Positions 18,114-54,020 of a DNA stretch of 64,000 bases are shown piece after piece. The translations under genes were made by a program, and so were the position numbers. The DNA is taken from the IMG/VR virus record IMGVR_UViG_3300007516_000010, positions 32,942 to 96,941 of that record. The stretch is one strand, 5' to 3'. Position 1 is the stretch's first letter; the number at the start of each line of letters is the position of its first letter. Source of the stretch: a virus. A model generated the notes under the pieces. That model made no database searches, was not told the origin of the DNA, and saw only the letters and a program-made list of their open reading frames with translations.

Positions 18114-21100
18114 ATGCTGCAGCCGCCCGTATCTCCTGGTTCGGCGGCTCAGCCAGCCGCGATTTCTCCTATCAAACCACGCTCGCCGCTGATGCCATTG
18201 GCGGACTCTCCCGGCGAAGAAATGCCAGTGGGCGTTAAGCTGCGAGCGACAGACGATCCAGACGCTTTACGTACCGGCGTTTACGACTCGGTGCTGGCAG
18301 CGGCTAGCTCGATGCCTCCAGCAGTGAGTAACACGCACACGCTCAAGCTGACGGATCTGCATTACGCTGAGGATGATCCTGAGTTCAACGCCACCGACGA
18401 GAAGAAGGCGATTCTTTCTGGCAGTAGTCTGAGTCGTCGGTTACGAGGCACGTGGCGGTTGTTTGACAACGGCACAGGTGGCGAGATCGCTGAGCGTAAA
18501 GCGACTGTTGCTAACGTCCCGGCGATTCTGCGAGACGGCTCGTTTCTTCGCGGCGGAACGCGGTACACGATGGGTGTGCAGCAACGGTTGCGTCCAGGTG
18601 CGTATGCTCGCTACCGCAAAAATGGGGAGGCCGAATTGCACGTTAACGCCCGCCAGGGCACCGGGCGTAGTCACCGTTACGTGCTGGAGCCCGAGACAGG
18701 GCACTTCTCTGTGCATGTTGAAGGGGCGAAGATTCCGCTCGTGCCGCTGTTAACTTCGCTGGGCGTTACCCGTGACCAGATGGAGAGTGCTTGGGGCAAG
18801 GAGCTGACGGACAAGAACTTCGCAAAGCAGGATCCTAAAGCGATCGGTAAATTCTATGACCGCTTTGTCCCTAAGTCGCAGCAGAACGCAGAGGACCGGT
18901 CGAATCCTGAGATGGTTCAGGCGAAGATTCGCGAAGCGTTTGAAAAGATCGAGCTGGATGACGAGGTCGTTGGTCACACACTTGGCAGGGCCACGGGCAA
19001 GGTAGACGCTGACAATATTCTGCGGGGCACGACCAAGACGCTGCGGATGTTGCAAGGGCAAGAAGATGCCGACGACCGAGACAACCTGGCGTTTGCCAGC
19101 TACCACGGGGCACCCGAGATATTCGCTGAACGGTTCATTAAAGATTACGGACGGTTCCGCAAGGAACTGCTTTACAAGGCGTCACGTAAAGGCACGCTGG
19201 ACAACGTCCCTTCAGGGGCTTTGGACAAGTACATCAACGCGGCAATTTTCCGTAGCGGACTTGCGCAAGGGTCCGAAGAAATAAATCCGTTCGAAATTCT
19301 CGCCGCTGGAACCAAGGTTACGCGGTTCGGCGAGGGTGGTCTTCCTGACACACTGTCGGCACCTGATGAGTCACGAGAAGTAAGCCCGAGTCAGTTCGGA
19401 TTCATTGACGCGGTGGTATCACCGGAGACTCTCCGCATCGGCATTGACGGTTTCTTGGCTCGTGACACGTTCATCGGTGACGACAACCGGCTGTACAGCA
19501 AACTGCTGGACAGCAAGACCGGCAAGACGGTGCTACGGAGCCCCAATCAGTTGCTCAACAGCACCACTGCGATTGGAGCCTCACCGATCCCTGGCTGGGA
19601 GCTAGCGATGCAAAAGGGTAAGTTGCGGATGGTGAAGGAAGGCACCGCCGAATACCGCATCCCCAGCATGGAAGACACGTTCGGTCAGTTAGCCAGTTTC
19701 ACCCCGATGAAATCTGGCATGTTTGGTCAGCGAACTTCAATGGCGAGTCGTATGGCGGCACAGGCTTTGGCTATCGATAACGCCGAGGCTCCGCTGGTGC
19801 AGACGGGCGTACCGGGTGATGCGGATGAGTCGTTCGAGGAGCGACTGGGTGTACGCCTGGGTGCGATCCGCGCCGAAGAGCGAGGCCGTGTTCTGGAGGT
19901 TTCGCCTGACCACATCTTGGTGCGTTACGCCCACGGCAAAGACAAGAAGTTCAGCCTGGACAACAATCGGCCTGGAGCCCGCAAGAGCGTGTTCCATCAC
20001 GACCCGATGGTTTCCGTCGGCCAGGAAGTCGAACCCAATCAGATGCTCGCTAAGAGTAACTACGTTGATGACAAAGGCACAGCGGCACTGGGCACCAACG
20101 CCCGTACGGCATTGATGGCGTGGGACGACGCGTTCGAGGACGGCATCGTAGTTTCGCAGTCGTTCGCTGACCGCGTGCGGGTACAGCAGGCGTACAAGCA
20201 CCGTATTCAGCCTGGCGAAGGCGAGAAGGTAGATAAGAAGTCGTACCTGCAGGTGTTCGGCAACCGGTACACAGGCGACCAGCTCAAGGCGATCGACAAC
20301 GACGGTGTGATTCGCATCGGTACCACAGTCAAGAGCGGCGATCCGTTGATCCTGGGCGTCCGCAAGCGTGACGGAGCCAAGACCCGTGTGCATCGGCAGA
20401 GCAAGATGGACTTTGGTGACTCCAGTATCCGCTGGGATCACCATAGTGAAGGCGTCGTCACCGACGTGTTCCATAGCGAGAAAGGTTCGCAGGTTGTTGT
20501 CAGGTCGTCTAAATCCCTGGAAGAGGGCGATAAGCTTTGCTACGACGAGCTGACTGAAGTGTTGACCCGCACAGGTTGGAAGCTCGTCGCGGATCTCCGG
20601 TTTGACGATGAGATTTGCTGTCGGAGCGAGGATGGCGGCATCCGCTACGACAAGCCGACCAAGCTTTATCAATACGCGACTGGCGGACGGATGTACCGGA
20701 TAGAGTCGCAACAGATCGACCTGTTCGTTACTGCGTCGCACAACATGTTTGTGCAGCGACGTAATGGTAAAGCATTCGAGTTGTTGCCTACGACGGCTAT
20801 CGCAGGCAAGCGTGTTCGATACGCCAAGTCAGGTAGCTGGGCAGGCAAGAGTCCGGAGTATTTTGAATTCCCTGCGATGCGAGTAAAGGCAGGGCAGTCT
20901 GGTCGCGGGTCACGAGACTTACCGGCGATCCGCTGGCCGTTACGCACGTACCTGATGCTGTTAGGGGTGTACCTGGCTGACGGCAACTGTTCCAAGCAAG
21001 TAAAGAAAGGGAACTGGTTCGTTGACATCACGAAGATCAAAGAGCCAAACCGCACGCAGCTACGGGAGGCATTAACCGCGGCTGGCATTAAGTTCCATGA

Positions 21101-23651
21101 AGCCGCCGGTGGTACCAAAGTTCGTATCCAGAGCAAGCAGCTGTACCAGCACTTCCAGCAATTTGGCCGGGCATGGGAAAAGTTTATCCCTGCCGAAGTG
21201 TTCGATTACGCCAGGGAAGACCTGGAGTATCTGTTCCAGTGGCTGATGTGGGGCGACGGGCACGCCGGCGATAAGTGGCCGATCAGCTACTCATCGACGT
21301 CTAAACAGCTGGCAGATGATGTCAGTCGCTTGCTGCTCCACATCGGCAAGGCAGGCAACGTCAGCTTTAAAGATCCGGAAGACTGCGTGATCCGTGGCAA
21401 GCAGTACAAATGTCGTCGATGTTATTCCGTGGGAATCATCAACACCAAGCTGACGCCGCAGGTAAATCACTCGCACGTCAAGAAGCAATCCGCACAGACG
21501 GAAGAGTACATCGACGGCTACGACAAGCCAGTGTTCTGCGTGGAAGTCCCGACGCACGTGCTGTATGTCCGCCGCAACGGAAAGGCCTGTTGGTCTGGTA
21601 ACTCTGGGCGTCAGGGAAACAAGGGCGTGATCACGGTCAAGCCCGACGAAGAGATGCCACAGGGTGAAGACGGTAAAGCGATCGAGGTAATCTTTAGTCC
21701 GCTGTCAGTACCCAGCCGCGGTAACAGCTCGTTCCCACTGGAGATGTTGCTCGGCAAGATCGCTCGCAAACGAGGCCAGGCGTACAAGATCAAGGACTTC
21801 AAAGGCGAAGACTTGCAGCAGATGGTTCTCAATGAAGCCGACAAGTACGGCGTCAGCGACACCGAGACCTTCATCGATCCTGCGACGGGTAGAAAGATCA
21901 AGGGCGTGTTGTCAGGCGACATGTTCTTGATGGCTCTTCACCACACGGCCGAATCGAAACAGAGTTCTCGCGGGCTGGGGAAATATTCCGCAGAAGATTC
22001 CCCCGCAAAGGGCGGAGAAGAGGGTGCCCAAGCGAAGAGATTCAGTGGCCAGCAGCTTTGGGCTGGGCTATCTCACGGAGCTTATGCCACGTCCAAGGAA
22101 GCGTCACTGCTGCGTGGAACCCGCAATGACGATTACTGGTCGGCGTTCATGGCCGGCAATCAGGTCGCTCCTCCGAAGGTTCCTGTCCAGTACAACGCGT
22201 TCATGGACAGGCTCCGCGCATCGGGCATCAATCCGGTCCGCAGGGGCACCCAGACGCAACTGATGGCGATGACGGACAACGACGTCCGAGACATCGCTGG
22301 AGACCGCGTCGTACGCGTTAACGACACGGTAGAAGTCCACAAGGACATGAAGCCCGTGCCGGGCGGTCTGTTCGATCCGCGACTATTCGGCGATGGGACT
22401 CGCTTCGCAGCGATCGAGTTACCCGAGCGGATGCCCAACCCTGTCTTCGAGGAGCCACTGCGGCGACTGCTGGGTTACACCGAGAAGGATTTCAGGGAAG
22501 TGCTGGGGGGTAAAAAAGAGATACCTGGTTTCGGCAGCGGTCCTGACGCGTTGTTCAAACGCCTGGAGCAGATCGACGTTCCCAAGGAACTTTCCCGTGC
22601 TCGTAACGAGATCGCTGGCACTCGTAAGGTAGCTCGCGACGCAGCGGTCCGGCGGCTGGGGTATCTGAAGAACTTCGAGAAGACCGGTACGCATCCGACG
22701 GATCTGATGATCTCGATGGTTCCGGTGATGCCACCGCGGCTGCGTCCGATCTCCAAGCTTGGCGGCAAGGGCGGCGTCGTGATCAGCGATCCCAACTTTC
22801 TGTACCGCGAGTTGATGCAGGCCAATGATGTGGTCAGCGAGCTCAAAGGTAAGGTCGACGACATCTCCGACGAACGGCTGGCGGTTTACGATGCTCACAA
22901 GGCACTCGTTGGTGTCACCGACTCGACCAACCGCGAGTTACAGCAGCGGAAGGTCAAAGGGATCATCAAGCGTCTTGTGGGGAGCAACCCCAAAAGCGGA
23001 GACATGCAGAGGAAGCTGCTCAGTGGCAACGTCGATACGGTCGGCCGCGGCGTGATCATGCCTGACACGTCGCTGGACATGGACAGCTTCGGTTTACCCG
23101 AGGCGATGGCGTTCAACATGTTTGAACCCTACGTCGCGAGAAACCTGTCGCTTAAGGGGATTCCCCGTATACAGGCGATGGAGCACCTTAAGGCCAGGGA
23201 CAGTGTTGCCCGTAAGGCATTGCTGGAAGAGATAGGCAAACGACCGGTGTCGCTTAGCCGTGCACCGATTCTCTACAAGTATGGCGACATCGCTTTGTTG
23301 CCGCAGTTGGTTAAGGGAGACACGATCAAGCTCAATCCGTTCGTGGTCAAGGGCCTCGGCGCCGATTACGATGGAGACGCTGTCAACCTTAACGTCATGC
23401 ACGGACGCGAAGCGGTAGCTGAAGCGATGGACAGGATGTTGCCCAGCCGCATGCTGTTCGCCACCAAGGACTTTAAGAGTCCGATGTTCACACCCAGCCA
23501 AGACATGCTGCTGGGACTCAACAGGGCTTCCCAGCCAGCAAAGAAGGGAGCCAAGACCCGTTACTTCGCTTCCTTTGAAGATGCCAAATCGGCACTGAAG
23601 CGAGGTGACATCGACCTTGACACACCTGTTCGGTTTCCGAAGACACCGTGA
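18114..23651 (+). CDS. RNA polymerase beta fused to N-terminal beta-prime, with intein
   Basis: A 1845-residue multisubunit-type RNA polymerase subunit, about 1490 residues after intein removal. Residues 1-808 match beta: lobe-like LRGTWRLFDNGTGGE near 110, then EDGIVVSQSF near 678 and EEGDKL at 803-808. After the intein (809-1163) beta continues with SGRQGNKGVI at 1164-1173, the active-site lysine loop, and PLSVPSRGN. Beta-prime begins around 1415 (PGGLFDPRLFG). It includes MVPVMPPRLRPISKL, NVDTVGRGVIMP and the catalytic magnesium site GADYDGD at 1749-1755 (D1751, D1753, D1755), then PSQDMLLGLNRAS. It ends at RFPKTP, near E. coli beta-prime residue 550. The rest of beta-prime is encoded at 52125. 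The N-terminal beta-prime zinc cysteines are absent. The subunit makes phage RNA, either in the infected cell or from the virion. Confidence 0.9.
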   Translation: MLQPPVSPGSAAQPAAISPIKPRSPLMPLADSPGEEMPVGVKLRATDDPDALRTGVYDSVLAAASSMPPAVSNTHTLKLTDLHYAEDDPEFNATDEKKAILSGSSLSRRLRGTWRLFDNGTGGEIAERKATVANVPAILRDGSFLRGGTRYTMGVQQRLRPGAYARYRKNGEAELHVNARQGTGRSHRYVLEPETGHFSVHVEGAKIPLVPLLTSLGVTRDQMESAWGKELTDKNFAKQDPKAIGKFYDRFVPKSQQNAEDRSNPEMVQAKIREAFEKIELDDEVVGHTLGRATGKVDADNILRGTTKTLRMLQGQEDADDRDNLAFASYHGAPEIFAERFIKDYGRFRKELLYKASRKGTLDNVPSGALDKYINAAIFRSGLAQGSEEINPFEILAAGTKVTRFGEGGLPDTLSAPDESREVSPSQFGFIDAVVSPETLRIGIDGFLARDTFIGDDNRLYSKLLDSKTGKTVLRSPNQLLNSTTAIGASPIPGWELAMQKGKLRMVKEGTAEYRIPSMEDTFGQLASFTPMKSGMFGQRTSMASRMAAQALAIDNAEAPLVQTGVPGDADESFEERLGVRLGAIRAEERGRVLEVSPDHILVRYAHGKDKKFSLDNNRPGARKSVFHHDPMVSVGQEVEPNQMLAKSNYVDDKGTAALGTNARTALMAWDDAFEDGIVVSQSFADRVRVQQAYKHRIQPGEGEKVDKKSYLQVFGNRYTGDQLKAIDNDGVIRIGTTVKSGDPLILGVRKRDGAKTRVHRQSKMDFGDSSIRWDHHSEGVVTDVFHSEKGSQVVVRSSKSLEEGDKLCYDELTEVLTRTGWKLVADLRFDDEICCRSEDGGIRYDKPTKLYQYATGGRMYRIESQQIDLFVTASHNMFVQRRNGKAFELLPTTAIAGKRVRYAKSGSWAGKSPEYFEFPAMRVKAGQSGRGSRDLPAIRWPLRTYLMLLGVYLADGNCSKQVKKGNWFVDITKIKEPNRTQLREALTAAGIKFHEAAGGTKVRIQSKQLYQHFQQFGRAWEKFIPAEVFDYAREDLEYLFQWLMWGDGHAGDKWPISYSSTSKQLADDVSRLLLHIGKAGNVSFKDPEDCVIRGKQYKCRRCYSVGIINTKLTPQVNHSHVKKQSAQTEEYIDGYDKPVFCVEVPTHVLYVRRNGKACWSGNSGRQGNKGVITVKPDEEMPQGEDGKAIEVIFSPLSVPSRGNSSFPLEMLLGKIARKRGQAYKIKDFKGEDLQQMVLNEADKYGVSDTETFIDPATGRKIKGVLSGDMFLMALHHTAESKQSSRGLGKYSAEDSPAKGGEEGAQAKRFSGQQLWAGLSHGAYATSKEASLLRGTRNDDYWSAFMAGNQVAPPKVPVQYNAFMDRLRASGINPVRRGTQTQLMAMTDNDVRDIAGDRVVRVNDTVEVHKDMKPVPGGLFDPRLFGDGTRFAAIELPERMPNPVFEEPLRRLLGYTEKDFREVLGGKKEIPGFGSGPDALFKRLEQIDVPKELSRARNEIAGTRKVARDAAVRRLGYLKNFEKTGTHPTDLMISMVPVMPPRLRPISKLGGKGGVVISDPNFLYRELMQANDVVSELKGKVDDISDERLAVYDAHKALVGVTDSTNRELQQRKVKGIIKRLVGSNPKSGDMQRKLLSGNVDTVGRGVIMPDTSLDMDSFGLPEAMAFNMFEPYVARNLSLKGIPRIQAMEHLKARDSVARKALLEEIGKRPVSLSRAPILYKYGDIALLPQLVKGDTIKLNPFVVKGLGADYDGDAVNLNVMHGREAVAEAMDRMLPSRMLFATKDFKSPMFTPSQDMLLGLNRASQPAKKGAKTRYFASFEDAKSALKRGDIDLDTPVRFPKTP
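20538..21602 (+). other. Intein with LAGLIDADG homing endonuclease
   Basis: An in-frame 355-residue insertion between GDKL and SGRQGNKG, exactly inside the most conserved beta active-site loop. The first residue is Cys (CYDELTEVLTRTGW) and the block with TASHNMF carries the usual splicing His. The end is VLYVRRNGKACWSGN followed by Ser as the +1 nucleophile. The usual penultimate His is Gly. Two LAGLIDADG-type helices are visible: LMLLGVYLADGN (about residue 945) and YLFQWLMWGDGH (about 1042). The intein would self-excise to restore GDKLSGRQGNKG and may cut intein-less alleles. Confidence 0.9.
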
Positions 23652-39404: not shown

Positions 39405-39477
39405 CGGGCTTTAGTTTAGGAGGTGCAGAACATGAGTAGAATTACTCAAGGCGATGGTTCGAGTCCATCAGGCCCGA
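39405..39477 (+). tRNA. tRNA-like fold with defective anticodon loop
   Basis: All four arms pair: acceptor CGGGCTT/AGGCCCG (39405-39411 with 39470-39476), D stem GTTT/GAAC with loop AGGAGGTGCA, anticodon stem TGAGT/ACTCA, and T arm GATGG-TTCGAGT-CCATC. The anticodon loop has only six bases (AGAATT) and no U before a plausible triplet, so decoding is unlikely. The D loop contains AGGAGG, the ribosome binding site of the ATG at 39432, which itself lies at the base of the anticodon arm. It is either a decayed tRNA or a tRNA mimic controlling that gene. Confidence 0.45.
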
Positions 39478-39665
39478 CTATACGGAAGCGAGACAGGCAG
39501 CGTCTCGCAGGATACGACAGAGCAATACAATTGCTAGATGTGGAGCTATTCGCAATGAGACTCTTTCGCGACCCGGTACTGAAGAAAGCCGTCGCAAAGC
39601 GGGAAGCGATTGACGAGAAACGCCGCACGTTGCGAGCATGGATGAAAGGCTACAAAGAGTCATAA
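39432..39665 (+). CDS. Small basic helical protein starting inside a tRNA-like fold
   Basis: A 77-residue protein of unknown function. The first 16 residues are encoded by the tRNA-like sequence; the rest is a strongly helical, basic segment (RLAGYDRAIQLLDVELFAMR, then EAIDEKRRTLRAWMKG). ATG at 39432 has a near-perfect AGGAGGTG eight bases upstream, located in the D loop. Confidence 0.5.
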   Translation: MSRITQGDGSSPSGPTIRKRDRQRLAGYDRAIQLLDVELFAMRLFRDPVLKKAVAKREAIDEKRRTLRAWMKGYKES

Positions 39666-47146: not shown

Positions 47147-47419
47147 ATGCGAGTACGGGATGCGGTAATTCGTGCAGACCGGGCCAGAGCCCGCTGCCAG
47201 TCAGCAGGCCGTAACAGGCCTTTCTACCGTCGACAGGCAAAGCGAGCTGAACGGCGACTGGGCCAGGCGATCATCCGGGAGTCGCTTGTCGAGCTTGACG
47301 GCGATGCGGTCCATCGCCGGATAGTGTTTAATGCGGCCGTCACCCGGCGGTCGACAATCTTGCAGAACGACTTGTGGTTGTTCATCGAATGCTTAAATCA
47401 CCCCGGCGACGTGATTTAA
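47147..47419 (+). CDS. Small Arg-rich protein
   Basis: A 90-residue basic protein (AVIRADRARARCQSAGRNRP, then RRQAKRAERRLGQAI) of unknown function. Its TAA stop coincides with the left edge of the first attC-like site, marking the boundary of the cassette-like island. Confidence 0.5.
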   Translation: MRVRDAVIRADRARARCQSAGRNRPFYRRQAKRAERRLGQAIIRESLVELDGDAVHRRIVFNAAVTRRSTILQNDLWLFIECLNHPGDVI

Positions 47420-47498
47420 CGTTCAAAATCACCGTGACCCGGCGGATGATTTCCAATTTCAATAAACCGTAGTCCGGGTCTGCGGTGCATTGTCTGCT
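47418..47498 (-). other. attC-like site 1
   Basis: It contains the 74-base block (47418-47491) repeated identically at 49152-49225. Internal arms CACCGTGACCCGG and CCGGGTCTGCGGTG pair imperfectly. The left outer arm is replaced by the end of the neighbouring gene, and the right end is GTCTGCT rather than GTTCTGCT, so this copy is truncated or altered at both edges. Confidence 0.6.
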
Positions 47499-47758
47499 GA
47501 CCAGTTGAAGCTGTCGACGCACTTCATGGTTTTGTTCTTGCCGTTTACTGGTAGCGTGTAAAGGGCATAGGTTAGTACAGTTTCAGCACCGACTTTTATC
47601 AGTTCATGGGAGTCATTGATGGTTAAAGCAACGCAGTTGACAAGCGGATTACCGCGAGGAAGCGGTAACGATTTCTTGATGCATCCTAAATCGGCTTCGA
47701 TGGAGCTTATCTGCAAAGACAGCGATGGCAGTGTTTTGGGTAGTTCTGAGTTGGACAT
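47459..47758 (-). CDS. Possible minus-strand cassette gene
   Basis: A 99-residue frame of unknown function, ending inside attC-like site 1 as cassette genes often do (last residues APQTRTTVY). The C-terminal half reads like protein (ELIKVGAETVLTYALYTLPV). It overlaps the plus-strand frame 47619-47906 over its N-terminal part, and only one may be real. Confidence 0.35.
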   Translation of the reverse strand: MSNSELPKTLPSLSLQISSIEADLGCIKKSLPLPRGNPLVNCVALTINDSHELIKVGAETVLTYALYTLPVNGKNKTMKCVDSFNWSADNAPQTRTTVY

Positions 47759-47906
47759 GCTTGAGTTCGATAACTTAGTTGAGTATTTAGTGCTGGCTTA
47801 CGGGATATTACCGCTAGACTGCGTCAAGCGAACGTTGTTGGCTTTGGAGCGGCATGCGATGAGTCTTAATACAGGCGGCGTTTCAGTAGCAGAACGCCCG
47901 CGATAA
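47619..47906 (+). CDS. Small cassette-region protein
   Basis: A 95-residue frame of unknown function (SSELDMLEFDNLVEYLVLAY, then LLALERHAMSLN). The end lies inside attC-like site 2. Composition is more protein-like than the opposing frame in the shared region. Confidence 0.45.
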   Translation: MVKATQLTSGLPRGSGNDFLMHPKSASMELICKDSDGSVLGSSELDMLEFDNLVEYLVLAYGILPLDCVKRTLLALERHAMSLNTGGVSVAERPR

Positions 47907-47981
47907 CCGGGCACGAAAGGTAAAATTATGAGTTCAGATAAAGATCAACAGAGTGCTCCGCGTTCATCGGATGGTTCTGCT
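47888..47981 (-). other. attC-like site 2
   Basis: Outer ends AGCAGAAC (47888) and GTTCTGCT (47974-47981), with partly complementary inner arms (CGCGATAACCGGGCAC against GTGCTCCGCGTTCATCGG). The start of the gene at 47928 lies inside it. Confidence 0.6.
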
Positions 47982-48182
47982 CCGGGTGCGGTAGCGGGCG
48001 AGCAGCAAGCATGTACGAGCCTGCCATTTTCAGAGTGGCTAGGCGGTGAAGCCATTACGCCGGAAGAGGCATCGGACAGAACGGGGTTACCAGTCAGCTT
48101 CTTCAACAATACATGGAGAGACGACCCGGATTACATTGCCAAGTATGTGACTCCGTACGAGAAAACGTCAGAGACGGTTTAA
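47928..48182 (+). CDS. Small cassette-region protein
   Basis: An 84-residue frame, Ser/Gln-rich at first, then folded-looking (LPFSEWLGGEAITPEEASDR). It begins within attC-like site 2 and ends head to head with the broken minus-strand gene. A purine stretch (AAAGGTAAA) precedes the ATG. Unknown function. Confidence 0.45.
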   Translation: MSSDKDQQSAPRSSDGSAPGAVAGEQQACTSLPFSEWLGGEAITPEEASDRTGLPVSFFNNTWRDDPDYIAKYVTPYEKTSETV

Positions 48183-48427
48183 GTCGAGGCATCTTCAGAT
48201 GGGAACATCACTATCAGCAGTCCGTCAGAGGATTGATTGATAGCTGCAGTATCGGGAATCCTGTATTCCGACACTAAAGTCGATCCTTGCGACGTTTACG
48301 CAAATAATTTGCCGTCGCGTTTGACTACTCGACAATCGTGCCAAGGGTCTGGACTGCCAGTGATATGAAGCTTGACACTTCCAGCATTCAGCAGGTCTTC
48401 TTCCGATGTGTTACCGTGGTATTGCAT
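48179..48427 (-). pseudogene. Cassette gene broken by an in-frame stop
   Basis: A minus-strand 83-codon frame starting at ATG 48425-48427, 18 bases past attC-like site 3. The first 43 residues (HITGSPDPWHDCRVVKRDGK) are followed by TAA at 48296-48298, after which the same frame continues for 38 protein-like residues (SEYRIPDTAAINQSSDG) to a final stop. One base change would restore it. Either decayed or read through. Confidence 0.5.
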
Positions 48428-48444
48428 GTGTCTTCAGTTTCAGC

Positions 48445-48535
48445 AGCAGAACGTTAACGATCAGCGGTCGACCGTCGCTGATTCTTCAATTCCAAGCGGA
48501 TGATCGGTCGCTCCGTTGCGTCGCATGGTTCTGCT
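48445..48535 (-). other. attC-like site 3
   Basis: Ends AGCAGAAC (48445-48452) and GTTCTGCT (48528-48535). Inner arms GATCAGCGGTCGACC and GATCGGTCGCTCCGTTG are partly complementary. On the minus strand a gene starts 18 bases after its end. Confidence 0.6.
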
Positions 48536-48568
48536 CCGCGTGGAGTGGGGCCGGGGAGAATTAGAGAT

Positions 48569-48904
48569 ATGGTTGAATCTACTGAGAAATCGATTCTCGA
48601 TCCGAATCCGGAAGTTCCGTACAATTGCATTGTGGGCGAACCGTTGCCAGGTGTTAGTGGGCTAGAGTGGCAGGATGAGAGCCTTCTTGAGTCTGGTCAA
48701 ACAGGCTTTTACTTAGTTTACAGCCCAAAAACTCACCAAATCCTCTTTACGCATTTAGTAGGTCCACAAGACCTAACAGTGTTACGCGTAGGTGATCGTG
48801 ACCAGGGTTATCGTCTGCTTGGACCGTTACCCAAGCCGCCGGTATATTTTTGCCCGGGAACAACCAACGGACTTGACATCGACCCTAACTGGCACTGGGA
48901 GTAG
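48569..48904 (+). CDS. Small cassette-region protein
   Basis: A 111-residue protein of unknown function with a well-formed beta-type sequence (QTGFYLVYSPKTHQILFTHL, then LGPLPKPPVYFCPGTTN). It starts 33 bases after attC-like site 3 on the plus strand and overlaps the end of a minus-strand gene by 20 bases. Confidence 0.5.
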   Translation: MVESTEKSILDPNPEVPYNCIVGEPLPGVSGLEWQDESLLESGQTGFYLVYSPKTHQILFTHLVGPQDLTVLRVGDRDQGYRLLGPLPKPPVYFCPGTTNGLDIDPNWHWE

Positions 48905-49124
48905 CGTTATCAATGCACTGTTTCGCTTCAGCTTCCGTGTTGAAAATTAGTGTGCTTTCGACAACGACTTTCGACCATGTATCGGACCTTCCCCAAAACA
49001 TCGCAGGAATCTGTCTGTAAGTCACAGGTGACTCAATAGATCCATGCTCAATCGCTTTGCTTGGCACTGAGGTAGGATCTGACACGATTACCCATTTATT
49101 GTCTCGAAGTTTAAGCGGCTTCAT
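48885..49124 (-). CDS. Small cassette gene
   Basis: A 79-residue protein starting 22 bases after the minus-strand end of attC-like site 4. Pattern: LKLRDNKWVIVSDP, then VTYRQIPAMFWGRSDTWSKV and a terminal EAEAKQCIDNAT helix. Unknown function. A longer frame to 49196 runs into the attC-like site and is less likely. Confidence 0.5.
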   Translation of the reverse strand: MKPLKLRDNKWVIVSDPTSVPSKAIEHGSIESPVTYRQIPAMFWGRSDTWSKVVVESTLIFNTEAEAKQCIDNATPSAS

Positions 49125-49146
49125 AAGTGGTTTCCCAGTCTCAGGT

Positions 49147-49238
49147 AGCAGAACGTTCAAAATCACCGTGACCCGGCGGATGATTTCCAATTTCAATAAA
49201 CCGTAGTCCGGGTCTGCGGTGCATTTTATGGTTCTGCT
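49147..49238 (-). other. attC-like site 4
   Basis: The best-formed site: ends AGCAGAAC (49147-49154) and GTTCTGCT (49231-49238), and inner arms CACCGTGACCCGG and CCGGGTCTGCGGTG pair with a few unpaired bases, as in attC. It holds the 74-base block identical to site 1. Confidence 0.65.
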
Positions 49239-49257
49239 CTACGATGAGCGGCGAGAA

Positions 49258-49491
49258 TCATACGGAGTCAGTAAGATGGCAATAAGCAGCATAAGCAGCC
49301 CGAGCATCTGCATTGGGCTTGATTTTGGTGGTGGAACACCAGGTCAAGAAACCGTCAATTGTTACGTAGGTCTTTACGACGGAGTTAGGGTCATCGAGAT
49401 TACGAAACCGCTCTTCGATGTACTCGACCCACTCATCGTATGTAAGCGTGAATTCTTCCGGGAATGCACGAACGAACAATTTAACCACCAC
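49258..49491 (-). CDS. Small cassette gene
   Basis: A 77-residue protein of unknown function whose stop lies 19 bases before attC-like site 4 in the minus direction, the usual gene-then-attC order. It is charged and helical (PEEFTLTYDEWVEYIEERFR), ending with WCSTTKIKPNADARAAYAAY. Start GTG at 49491. The opposing plus frame is considered its shadow. Confidence 0.5.
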   Translation of the reverse strand: MVVKLFVRAFPEEFTLTYDEWVEYIEERFRNLDDPNSVVKTYVTIDGFLTWCSTTKIKPNADARAAYAAYCHLTDSV

Positions 49492-49521: not shown

Positions 49522-49689
49522 ATGCCCTACTGTAAGGAATGTAAAAGAGAGCTGGACTGCGAGGACACCAACGGTAGAGACCTAGAGACCATGGGCGGTC
49601 TATCTGTCGAATACTACGTGTGCGAAGAATGCAACATCCCCTACGAACTAATAGGGGACAACCTGTACAGAACAGACGACCAATCATGA
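49522..49689 (+). CDS. 55-residue zinc-ribbon-like protein
   Basis: A small protein with two CxxC pairs (CKEC at residues 4-7 and CEEC near 34-37), a likely zinc ribbon. It lies just outside the cassette array. Unknown function; possibly a nucleic-acid-binding adaptor. Confidence 0.5.
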   Translation: MPYCKECKRELDCEDTNGRDLETMGGLSVEYYVCEECNIPYELIGDNLYRTDDQS

Positions 49690-52124: not shown

Positions 52125-54020
52125 ATGTCTGATCTTACCATTGGCCAGCACATGCTGTCGGCTATGCTTCCGCCGGACGCTTATCGTCCTGGCCAGGTGA
52201 TCGACAAGAAAAGCATCAGCCAGATCTTTGGCGACTTAGCGGCCAATCATGCGGACGATTACAAAGAGATATCCCACCAGGCGATGTTGTTCGGGCGGGA
52301 CTCGGCGAAGATGAGCGGCGGCGGGGCGTTCTCGATCCGCCACATGGCGACTCCCAAGCGGGCCCAGGCCAGGCGAGACGTCATTCGGCAAACGATTAGC
52401 GACATATTGCTGACAACTCCCGAAGCGGACCGCGACCAAGCGATTATCGACGTACTGGCCAAGGCTCAGTCGACGGACAAGGACGAGACGGTTGCCGAGG
52501 CAGAGGAAGAAGGTAATCCGTTTGCGACCATGCTCAAAGGAGCCGGCCGTGGAAACCCAGCTAGTATCGCTAGGCTGATCTCCAGCGACTTGATGTACGC
52601 TGACGCGTCTGGCCGCCCAATTGCTATCCCCGTACTTAACTCGTACAGCCGCGGGCTAACCCCGAGCGAATACGCCGCGTCGACGTTCGGTGTACGCAAG
52701 GGACTGGTCGACGCCAAGGTAGGAGTCGGCACGGGTGGCTACGCCGCTAAGCTGTTGCTTGCCGCGGCTCATCGCATGGTTGTCACTGACAACGATGCTC
52801 CGCCAGAGCTGGAAATGCTTTCCGCCGGTCGTGGTTTACCTGTCGACGTCACCGACACTGACAACATCGGAGCTTTGCTGGCGGCCGACACGGGGCCGTA
52901 CCCGCGTAACACTACGATCACGCCAAAGATTCTCGCCCACCTGCAGAAACTCAAGCACGACGAGATCCTTGTTCGCAGTCCACTAACGAGCGTCGATCCC
53001 GCCGGCGGTGTCTACGCCAGGGATGTCGGTTTCCGCGAACAGAACCGTTTACCAGCGATCGGCGAGTCGGTCGGGGTTACCGCTGCTGGGGCAATCTCAG
53101 AACCGGTCACGCAATCCCTGCTTAGCTCCAAGCACAAAGGCGGCCTCGCCGAGGCCCAGTCCGACGAGTTGACCGGGTTCGCTCTCATCGACCGGCTGAT
53201 CAACACGCCCAAGGAGTTCCGCGAGGCGGGGACGCATACGGAAGTCGACGGCAAGGTCGAATCGATTAAGCCCGCTGAGCAGGGCGGCTCGTACGTCACC
53301 GTCGCCGGCCAGCAGTACTATGCTTCGCCCAACGCCAAAGTCACCGTCAACTTAGGCGACGACGTCGAAGCGGGCGACATGCTCACCGGCGGCACACCCA
53401 ACCCGCGGATGGTAATTCGGCACAAGGGGCTAGGTGAAGGTGGGCGGCAGTTGGTCAAGTCGTTACACAAGGCGATCGGCAAAGACGCTCACCGCAGGAA
53501 CATCGAGTTGATTGTGCGTGGTTTGGTCGACCGAGTACGCGTGACTGAGGAGTTCGACGACTATGCACCTGAAGACGTTGTCCCGTACAGCGAGGTGATG
53601 AGCAGGTGGCAACCGCGAGAGGGTTCCAGCGTGGATGGGCTGCACCGAATCCGCGGCAAGTACCTGGAGCAGCCTGTGCTGCATTATTCCGTTGGCACGC
53701 GAATTACGCCGTCGGTAACCAAGATGCTACAAAAGCACAACGTTCAGCAGATCACGACGCATAACTCGCCGCCGCCATTTGAGCCTGAAACGGTTCGGGC
53801 GACCGACGTGCTGCGAACCGATCAGGACTGGATGACGCGGCAGGTGGGAACAGGACTCCAGCGTGGATTACTTGAATCGGCACACCGCGGACGAATTAGC
53901 GACGAGGATTCGACGAGTTTTGTGCCCGCGAGGGCTCACGCAGTAAACTTTGGGAGCGTCGGCAAAGTCCAGTTGTCGCCTCCCAAGCCATCCTCATTGC
54001 CCAACTTAGGCTATCAATAA
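52125..54020 (+). CDS. RNA polymerase beta-prime, C-terminal subunit
   Basis: A 631-residue protein that continues beta-prime where the gene at 18114 stops. The start matches the segment after E. coli residue ~610 (TIGQHMLSAMLPPDAY, then VIDKKSISQIFGDL). GAGRGNPASIARLISSDLMY is near residue 138. The bridge helix ASTFGVRKGLVDAKVGVGTG is near 183-205 and VVTDNDAP near 222. VRSPLTSVDPAGGVYARDVG (near 284) lacks the zinc cysteines, and the trigger loop SEPVTQSLLSSKHKGG lies near 323-340. A beta-prime-like clamp end follows. The equivalent split occurs between rpoC1 and rpoC2 of cyanobacteria and plastids. Together with the 18114 product it would form the catalytic centre. SD AGAGGAA lies upstream. 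Confidence 0.88.
   Translation: MSDLTIGQHMLSAMLPPDAYRPGQVIDKKSISQIFGDLAANHADDYKEISHQAMLFGRDSAKMSGGGAFSIRHMATPKRAQARRDVIRQTISDILLTTPEADRDQAIIDVLAKAQSTDKDETVAEAEEEGNPFATMLKGAGRGNPASIARLISSDLMYADASGRPIAIPVLNSYSRGLTPSEYAASTFGVRKGLVDAKVGVGTGGYAAKLLLAAAHRMVVTDNDAPPELEMLSAGRGLPVDVTDTDNIGALLAADTGPYPRNTTITPKILAHLQKLKHDEILVRSPLTSVDPAGGVYARDVGFREQNRLPAIGESVGVTAAGAISEPVTQSLLSSKHKGGLAEAQSDELTGFALIDRLINTPKEFREAGTHTEVDGKVESIKPAEQGGSYVTVAGQQYYASPNAKVTVNLGDDVEAGDMLTGGTPNPRMVIRHKGLGEGGRQLVKSLHKAIGKDAHRRNIELIVRGLVDRVRVTEEFDDYAPEDVVPYSEVMSRWQPREGSSVDGLHRIRGKYLEQPVLHYSVGTRITPSVTKMLQKHNVQQITTHNSPPPFEPETVRATDVLRTDQDWMTRQVGTGLQRGLLESAHRGRISDEDSTSFVPARAHAVNFGSVGKVQLSPPKPSSLPNLGYQ

Follow-up and report, generated by a model that had tools for sequence, protein, structure and literature searches.

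The question raised by this locus is whether a run of inverted repeats and small genes, found between two phage genes, is a piece of an integron that has come to lie in a viral genome, as had been proposed from an earlier reading of the DNA. The window analysed here is a stretch of 64,000 nucleotides, positions 32942-96941 of a virus record of 96,941 bases. The array, at 47412-49491, is placed between the end of one phage ORF at 47419 and the start of the next at 49522, and contains four attC sites; of its cassettes, three are complete and one is truncated. We consider it a CALIN, i.e., a cluster of attC sites lacking an integron integrase, representing a fragment of an integron cassette array between two genes of a probably virulent phage, and give this reading a probability of about 0.92. 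A CALIN requires two or more attC sites within about 3-4 kb; four were found here within 1.8 kb.

The surrounding genes are those of a phage and include genes for an RIIA-like protein, RNA polymerase subunits, thymidylate synthase and a virion protein. The phage has no close named relative; its life style is probably lytic and its host presumably Verrucomicrobiota-like. A large RNA polymerase subunit appears to be split over two ORFs that lie 28 kb apart, with positions 139-541 of phrog_25354 matching the ORF at 18114-23651 and positions 677-1098 matching the ORF at 52125-54020. Residues 792-911 of the former ORF match part of a thymidylate synthase PHROG, possibly through a shared intein. A tRNA-like gene at 39405-39478 had no assignable anticodon (ARAGORN).

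The original prediction described four repeat sites, three of them with full ends, and a long identical block in two of them, which the sequence confirms. Sites s2, s3 and s4 carry perfect 8-bp outer boxes, AGCAGAAC (R'') and GTTCTGCT (R'). Box 8-mers of this kind occur eight times in the 64 kb, six of them in the s2-s4 pairs. Of 72 8-mers with an inverted partner at a distance of 68-118 nt, none but AGCAGAAC forms three pairs, and 100 block-shuffled windows gave at most two such pairs, never three. Site s1 shares its core (47418-47491) with s4 (49152-49225) as 74 identical nucleotides and has lost the outer 8-bp boxes: its R'' box is damaged (AGCAGAC) and its R' box is a hybrid, GTTAAAT, that runs into phage DNA. 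Rfam gave no match.

Read along the minus strand, an intact site starts with AGCAGAAC, followed by CAT.. and an L'' arm that contains an extrahelical G and then a second small bulge; the remainder consists of a stem with a variable loop, the L' arm and GTTCTGCT. This is the architecture of attC sites, with an unpaired central spacer, extrahelical bases on the L'' side and a variable terminal structure. All three intact sites fold, with same-arm bulges at matching places; in s2, the L arm CGAT[G]AAC[G]CGG[A]GCAC pairs against GTGCCCGGTTATCG, and the DNA fold of s4 has a z-score of -5.2. Pairing is kept in the inner arms of s2, s3 and s4 although their sequences differ. When the four sites are aligned, 96% of the pair cells form and five pairs have both members changed; pairing falls to 34-39% if the partner is shifted by one column. 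This covariation rests on four sequences aligned by the attC model, so the test leans towards the structure. Sites s3, s4 and perhaps s2 look able to act, and s1 probably not.

Table 1. Features of the array and its edges, in window positions. R1 and R2 are the attC covariance models described in the text; +, plus strand; -, minus strand.
Feature	Position	Strand	Details
Left-flank phage ORF	47147-47419	+	90 aa; TAA stop exactly at left edge of array
attC s1	47412-47498	-	last site of array; R2 25.1 bits, E 1.7e-5 (4.5 kb, unfiltered)
ATTTAAC, left edge	47414-47420	+	minus strand reads G|TTAAAT
Cassette D body	47499-47887	-	ORF 47619-47906 (+, 95 aa) overlapping ORF 47459-47758 (-, 99 aa)
attC s2	47888-47981	-	perfect boxes; R2 19.7 bits, E 4.4e-4 (4.5 kb, unfiltered)
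Cassette C body	47982-48444	-	ORF 48296-48427 (-, 43 aa) and convergent ORF 47928-48182 (+, 84 aa)
attC s3	48445-48535	-	perfect boxes; R1 33.2 bits, E 3.6e-6; R2 37.0 bits, E 2e-7
Cassette B body	48536-49146	-	ORF 48885-49124 (-, 79 aa) and convergent ORF 48569-48904 (+, 111 aa)
attC s4	49147-49238	-	perfect boxes; R1 44.4 bits, E 5.1e-9; R2 47.7 bits, E 3.3e-10
Cassette A gene	49258-49491	-	77-aa ORF; stop about 20 nt before R'' box of s4; phrog_4753
ATTTAAC, probable right edge	49479-49485	+	same heptamer as at left edge; position inferred
Right-flank phage ORF	49522-49689	+	55 aa; four-cysteine zinc-ribbon-like pattern; no family

An attC covariance model had been named as the way to check the prediction, and we built such models from integrons of bacteria. 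Integron integrases (NCBIfam TIGR02249) are common in Verrucomicrobiota, 81 of 289 genomes having them; we took the DNA flanking twenty of these integrases and sought repeated boxes in it de novo. Nine sites from two Verrucomicrobiota arrays, with the variable loops mostly omitted, gave model R1. With R1, 25 integrase regions, of Verrucomicrobiota with few exceptions, yielded 53 candidate sites, and these served to make model R2; the weakest of these 53 training sites may be false. Neither model contains any sequence from the window.

Applied to the whole 64 kb up to E = 10, R1 returned s4, s3 and s1 (E = 0.02) only, all on the minus strand; E-values from these quickly calibrated models are rough, and the argument is carried by the bit scores. 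With default filters, R2 found s4 and s3 in the whole window and missed s2, and in an unfiltered search of 46.5-51 kb it recovered all four sites (Table 1), the next match scoring 9.9 bits. The published CALIN criteria of 20 bits and 3 kb (Qi et al.) were used with another model than the one behind these scores. The match was strand-specific, with s4 scoring 47.7 bits on the minus strand versus 3.7 bits on the plus strand. Thus, a model untrained on the window matches all four sites, which bears out the proposal of an integron-like cassette array in a phage genome.

This home-made model was examined with controls of both kinds. The attC sites of the R46 class 1 integron scored 44.8 (aadA1), 23.0, 16.9 and 15.0 bits with R2, on the strand of the resistance genes, which fixes the meaning of the model strand. 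R46 has intI1, attI1, resistance genes and canonical GTTRRRY boxes, unlike the phage array. As a negative control, R2 found nothing up to E = 1 in 54 loci (387 kb) with chance box patterns, and elsewhere in the phage, as well as in three distant relatives, the attC model gave nothing below E = 1.

Exact scans for the box pair yielded candidates that we rejected. Genome contigs gave 66 matches versus an estimated 58 or so expected, which is chance level. Two scans of viral contigs gave 6 and 49 matches, due to chance or coding sequence, many of them to one conserved 85-nt coding stretch, and in Verrucomicrobiota the pattern occurred in 5 of 388 genomes, with a reversed control pattern at a similar level. 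The loci from the 49-match scan and from Verrucomicrobiota contained no attC according to the model. The 85-nt stretch, with its AGCAGAAC...GTTCTGCT pattern, is common to many phage contigs and is not an attC site.

The R' boxes deserve attention because the consensus GTTRRRY is fitted by s1 (GTTAAAT) and not by s2-s4 (GTTCTGC). Integrase-linked arrays of Verrucomicrobiota also carry R' boxes GTTCGGC, GTTCGCT and GTTCTGC, and since many R' boxes there depart from GTTRRRY, that consensus does not define attC in Verrucomicrobiota. At one such locus, L127, the R' box GTTCTGC occurs and another site has the AGCAGAAC R'' box. The phage array thus resembles Verrucomicrobiota integrons (L119, L127, L131, L133) in attC architecture and in box variants, with a likeness of sites that is structural and not close in sequence. 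Whereas the Verrucomicrobiota arrays adjoin an integrase, the phage array does not. The 96,941-base record, which may itself be incomplete (IMG/VR) so that an integrase might lie outside it, yielded neither an integron integrase nor a tyrosine recombinase. With no intI gene there, the locus is a cassette cluster without integrase and not a complete integron.

According to the covariance model all four attC sites have the same orientation, their top strand being the minus strand. The cassettes thus run counter to the phage genes; the minus-strand ORFs follow the cassette direction and the plus-strand ORFs oppose it. Read in this direction, the site that closes each cassette is s4 for A, s3 for B, s2 for C and s1 for D. 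The expected order of a gene followed by its attC site in the same orientation is found in A, B and C and is ambiguous in D, and the predicted direction of the minus-strand genes agrees with the attC orientation given by the model. The minus-strand ORFs of B and C start about 23 nt past the R' box of s4 and about 18 nt past that of s3, respectively. Three cassettes (B, C and D) also contain opposing plus-strand ORFs, and that of C overlaps s2. In D, the plus-strand ORF has GGGAG upstream of its ATG and appears favoured by its codon score (12.1 versus 1.4 bits); in the other cassettes codon scores were not decisive for strand.

Seven of the eight ORFs examined had no homologues. Searches of Pfam, NCBIfam and PADLOC, and of phage and plasmid records, gave no acceptable match to any cassette ORF; for the proteins of cassettes A and B nothing was found in viral contigs. 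A scan of one Verrucomicrobiota order (12 genomes) found nothing. Nothing indicates the role in defence or anti-defence that had been suggested for the cassette genes, PADLOC being without matches.

The protein of cassette A is the only recognisable cassette protein and matches phrog_4753 (E 1.6e-5, PHROGs). Members of this family are about 100 aa long, have conserved WC and AR..Y motifs and occur both in integron cassettes and in phages; one relative is gp17 of Burkholderia phage Bcep176. When 388 Verrucomicrobiota genomes were searched with a chain of six cassette proteins, one weak match was obtained, to cassette A (E 0.0028 per genome), which by itself could be due to chance. The matching gene is a 99-aa ORF located between attC sites, directly before one of them. 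A search of Verrucomicrobiota with the phrog_4753 family model gave three strong matches, L191, L192 and L193. L193 is the same gene as the 99-aa ORF, with four attC sites around it, and in L192 an attC site directly precedes the gene; L191 had no attC in the stretch examined. Since two of the three strong relatives adjoin attC sites, they provide independent support for cassette A as a gene cassette, of a family that the phage array has in common with Verrucomicrobiota loci L192 and L193.

Two other explanations of the locus were weighed. The repeats might be hairpins of the phage itself, such as terminators, a miniature element or regulatory stem-loops, since they are imperfect inverted repeats and the s1 and s4 cores are identical. 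We give this hardly any credence, because the bulges are asymmetric and at attC positions, the boxes are of the AAC/GTT type, the match to an independent attC model is strand-specific and at the level of the R46 sites, and a cassette-family gene (phrog_4753) is correctly placed beside an attC site. Slightly more weight, yet still very little, goes to host chromosomal DNA misassembled onto a phage contig, or to an element integrated in a host chromosome. The record is indeed a metagenomic virus contig, and the array has a lower GC content (0.49) than the window (0.55), but phage-type genes continue on the same strand to the left and right, the array starts right after the stop of an ORF with phage bias, and the record yielded no integrase or tyrosine recombinase.

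How the cassettes entered is less clear than what they are, and here the edges of the array are informative. The 90-aa ORF on the left, for which no protein family was found, has phage codon bias (LLR +16.4). On the minus strand the s1 core runs to GAACGTT and is followed by AAATCACG, which is the end of the phage ORF, so that the hybrid R' box G|TTAAAT lies directly behind the phage stop codon and precisely where the attC core ends. A hybrid R' box of this sort is what remains after insertion at a secondary G|TT site, and the left junction fits integrase insertion of this kind. Loot and colleagues (2024, Nat Microbiol, cited in PMC11023631) reportedly described cassettes integrated outside integrons at G|TT-type sites, called attG; the left edge has that G|TT form. 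ATTTAAC, which has five plus-strand copies in the 64 kb, recurs about where the similarity of cassette A to the phrog_4753 family ends, and the shared heptamer together with the end of family similarity makes this the probable right edge of the array. If so, the 90-aa and 55-aa ORFs would once have been adjacent, with 37 nt from stop to start. An unoccupied GTGATTTAACCACCAC junction between these two ORFs would favour G|TT insertion; no empty-site relative was found, the relatives of the flank genes being distant and without attC, so we infer the junction.

The same edges allow a different mode of entry, by illegitimate or microhomology recombination through the shared ATTTAAC instead of by an integrase. 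This would leave the locus a CALIN, and we put it only a little short of an even chance. ATTTAAC is present at both proposed edges, and the gene of the first cassette, A, is about 17-20 N-terminal residues shorter than its relatives, which clean insertion of a whole cassette would not cause; because of this truncation, such recombination is nearly as likely a route of entry. Off-target and illegitimate recombination have also been considered for phage CALINs (Qi et al., PMC9892861). On the other hand, an integrase would be expected to join the DNA precisely where the attC core ends, and it is there that the left junction falls, on a G|TT that fits GTTRRRY.

Among the integrons tested, those of Verrucomicrobiota are most similar to the array, which presumably derives from a host chromosomal integron; the likeness to planctomycete attC sites suggested at the outset is a conjecture. 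Integron integrases recombine the folded single-stranded bottom strands of attC sites, cutting in the AAC of the R box (PMC11023631; PMC11641012). The bottom strand of the array is the plus strand of the window; during replication or entry it would become single-stranded and form hairpins. A host IntI acting in trans could then bind the R and L boxes and cut within the AAC of the R box, upon which a cassette would be excised as a circle or inserted into another attC, an attI or a secondary G|TT site. Having no integrase of its own, the phage would depend on that of its host. It may in this way serve as a cassette shuttle among hosts, with host cassettes varying its accessory genes. The full scenario, in which a lytic phage lineage takes up cassettes delivered by a host integrase at a G|TT behind a phage gene and carries them among bacteria of the Verrucomicrobiota/Planctomycetota kind, is doubtful at present. 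If true, a host integron would act as supplier of exchangeable accessory genes to a lytic phage lineage. The array may also be partly decayed and no longer mobile, in view of the lost R'' box of s1 and the apparent truncation of the first cassette gene.

Seventeen CALINs were reported in phages, virulent ones included, in the first description of such phage-borne clusters (Qi et al. 2023, PMC9892861), and published examples are those of Tetrasphaera phage TJE1, Pseudoalteromonas phage PH101 and Polaribacter phage P12002L. This kind of arrangement is therefore not new: the presence of cassettes in a phage, the main point of the original prediction, is real here, and such cassettes in lytic phages had been published before. 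Like the published CALINs, the array is an attC cluster with small cassettes and no integrase in a phage of probably lytic type. It differs from them in that the phage encodes RNA polymerase subunits, the R' box is GTTCTGC instead of GTTRRRY, and one edge site is a hybrid. IntI1 recombined five of six attC sites tested from virulent phages (PMC9892861), and by analogy activity of the candidate sites described here is plausible.

The locus is thus a further, well-supported instance in which a large and probably lytic phage contains integron cassettes, and it is tied to the chromosomal integrons of Verrucomicrobiota by a gene family and a box variant found in both. As such, it supports the view that cassettes can travel between bacteria by way of phages, and its hybrid edge site gives a direct handle on whether integrases insert cassettes into phage DNA.
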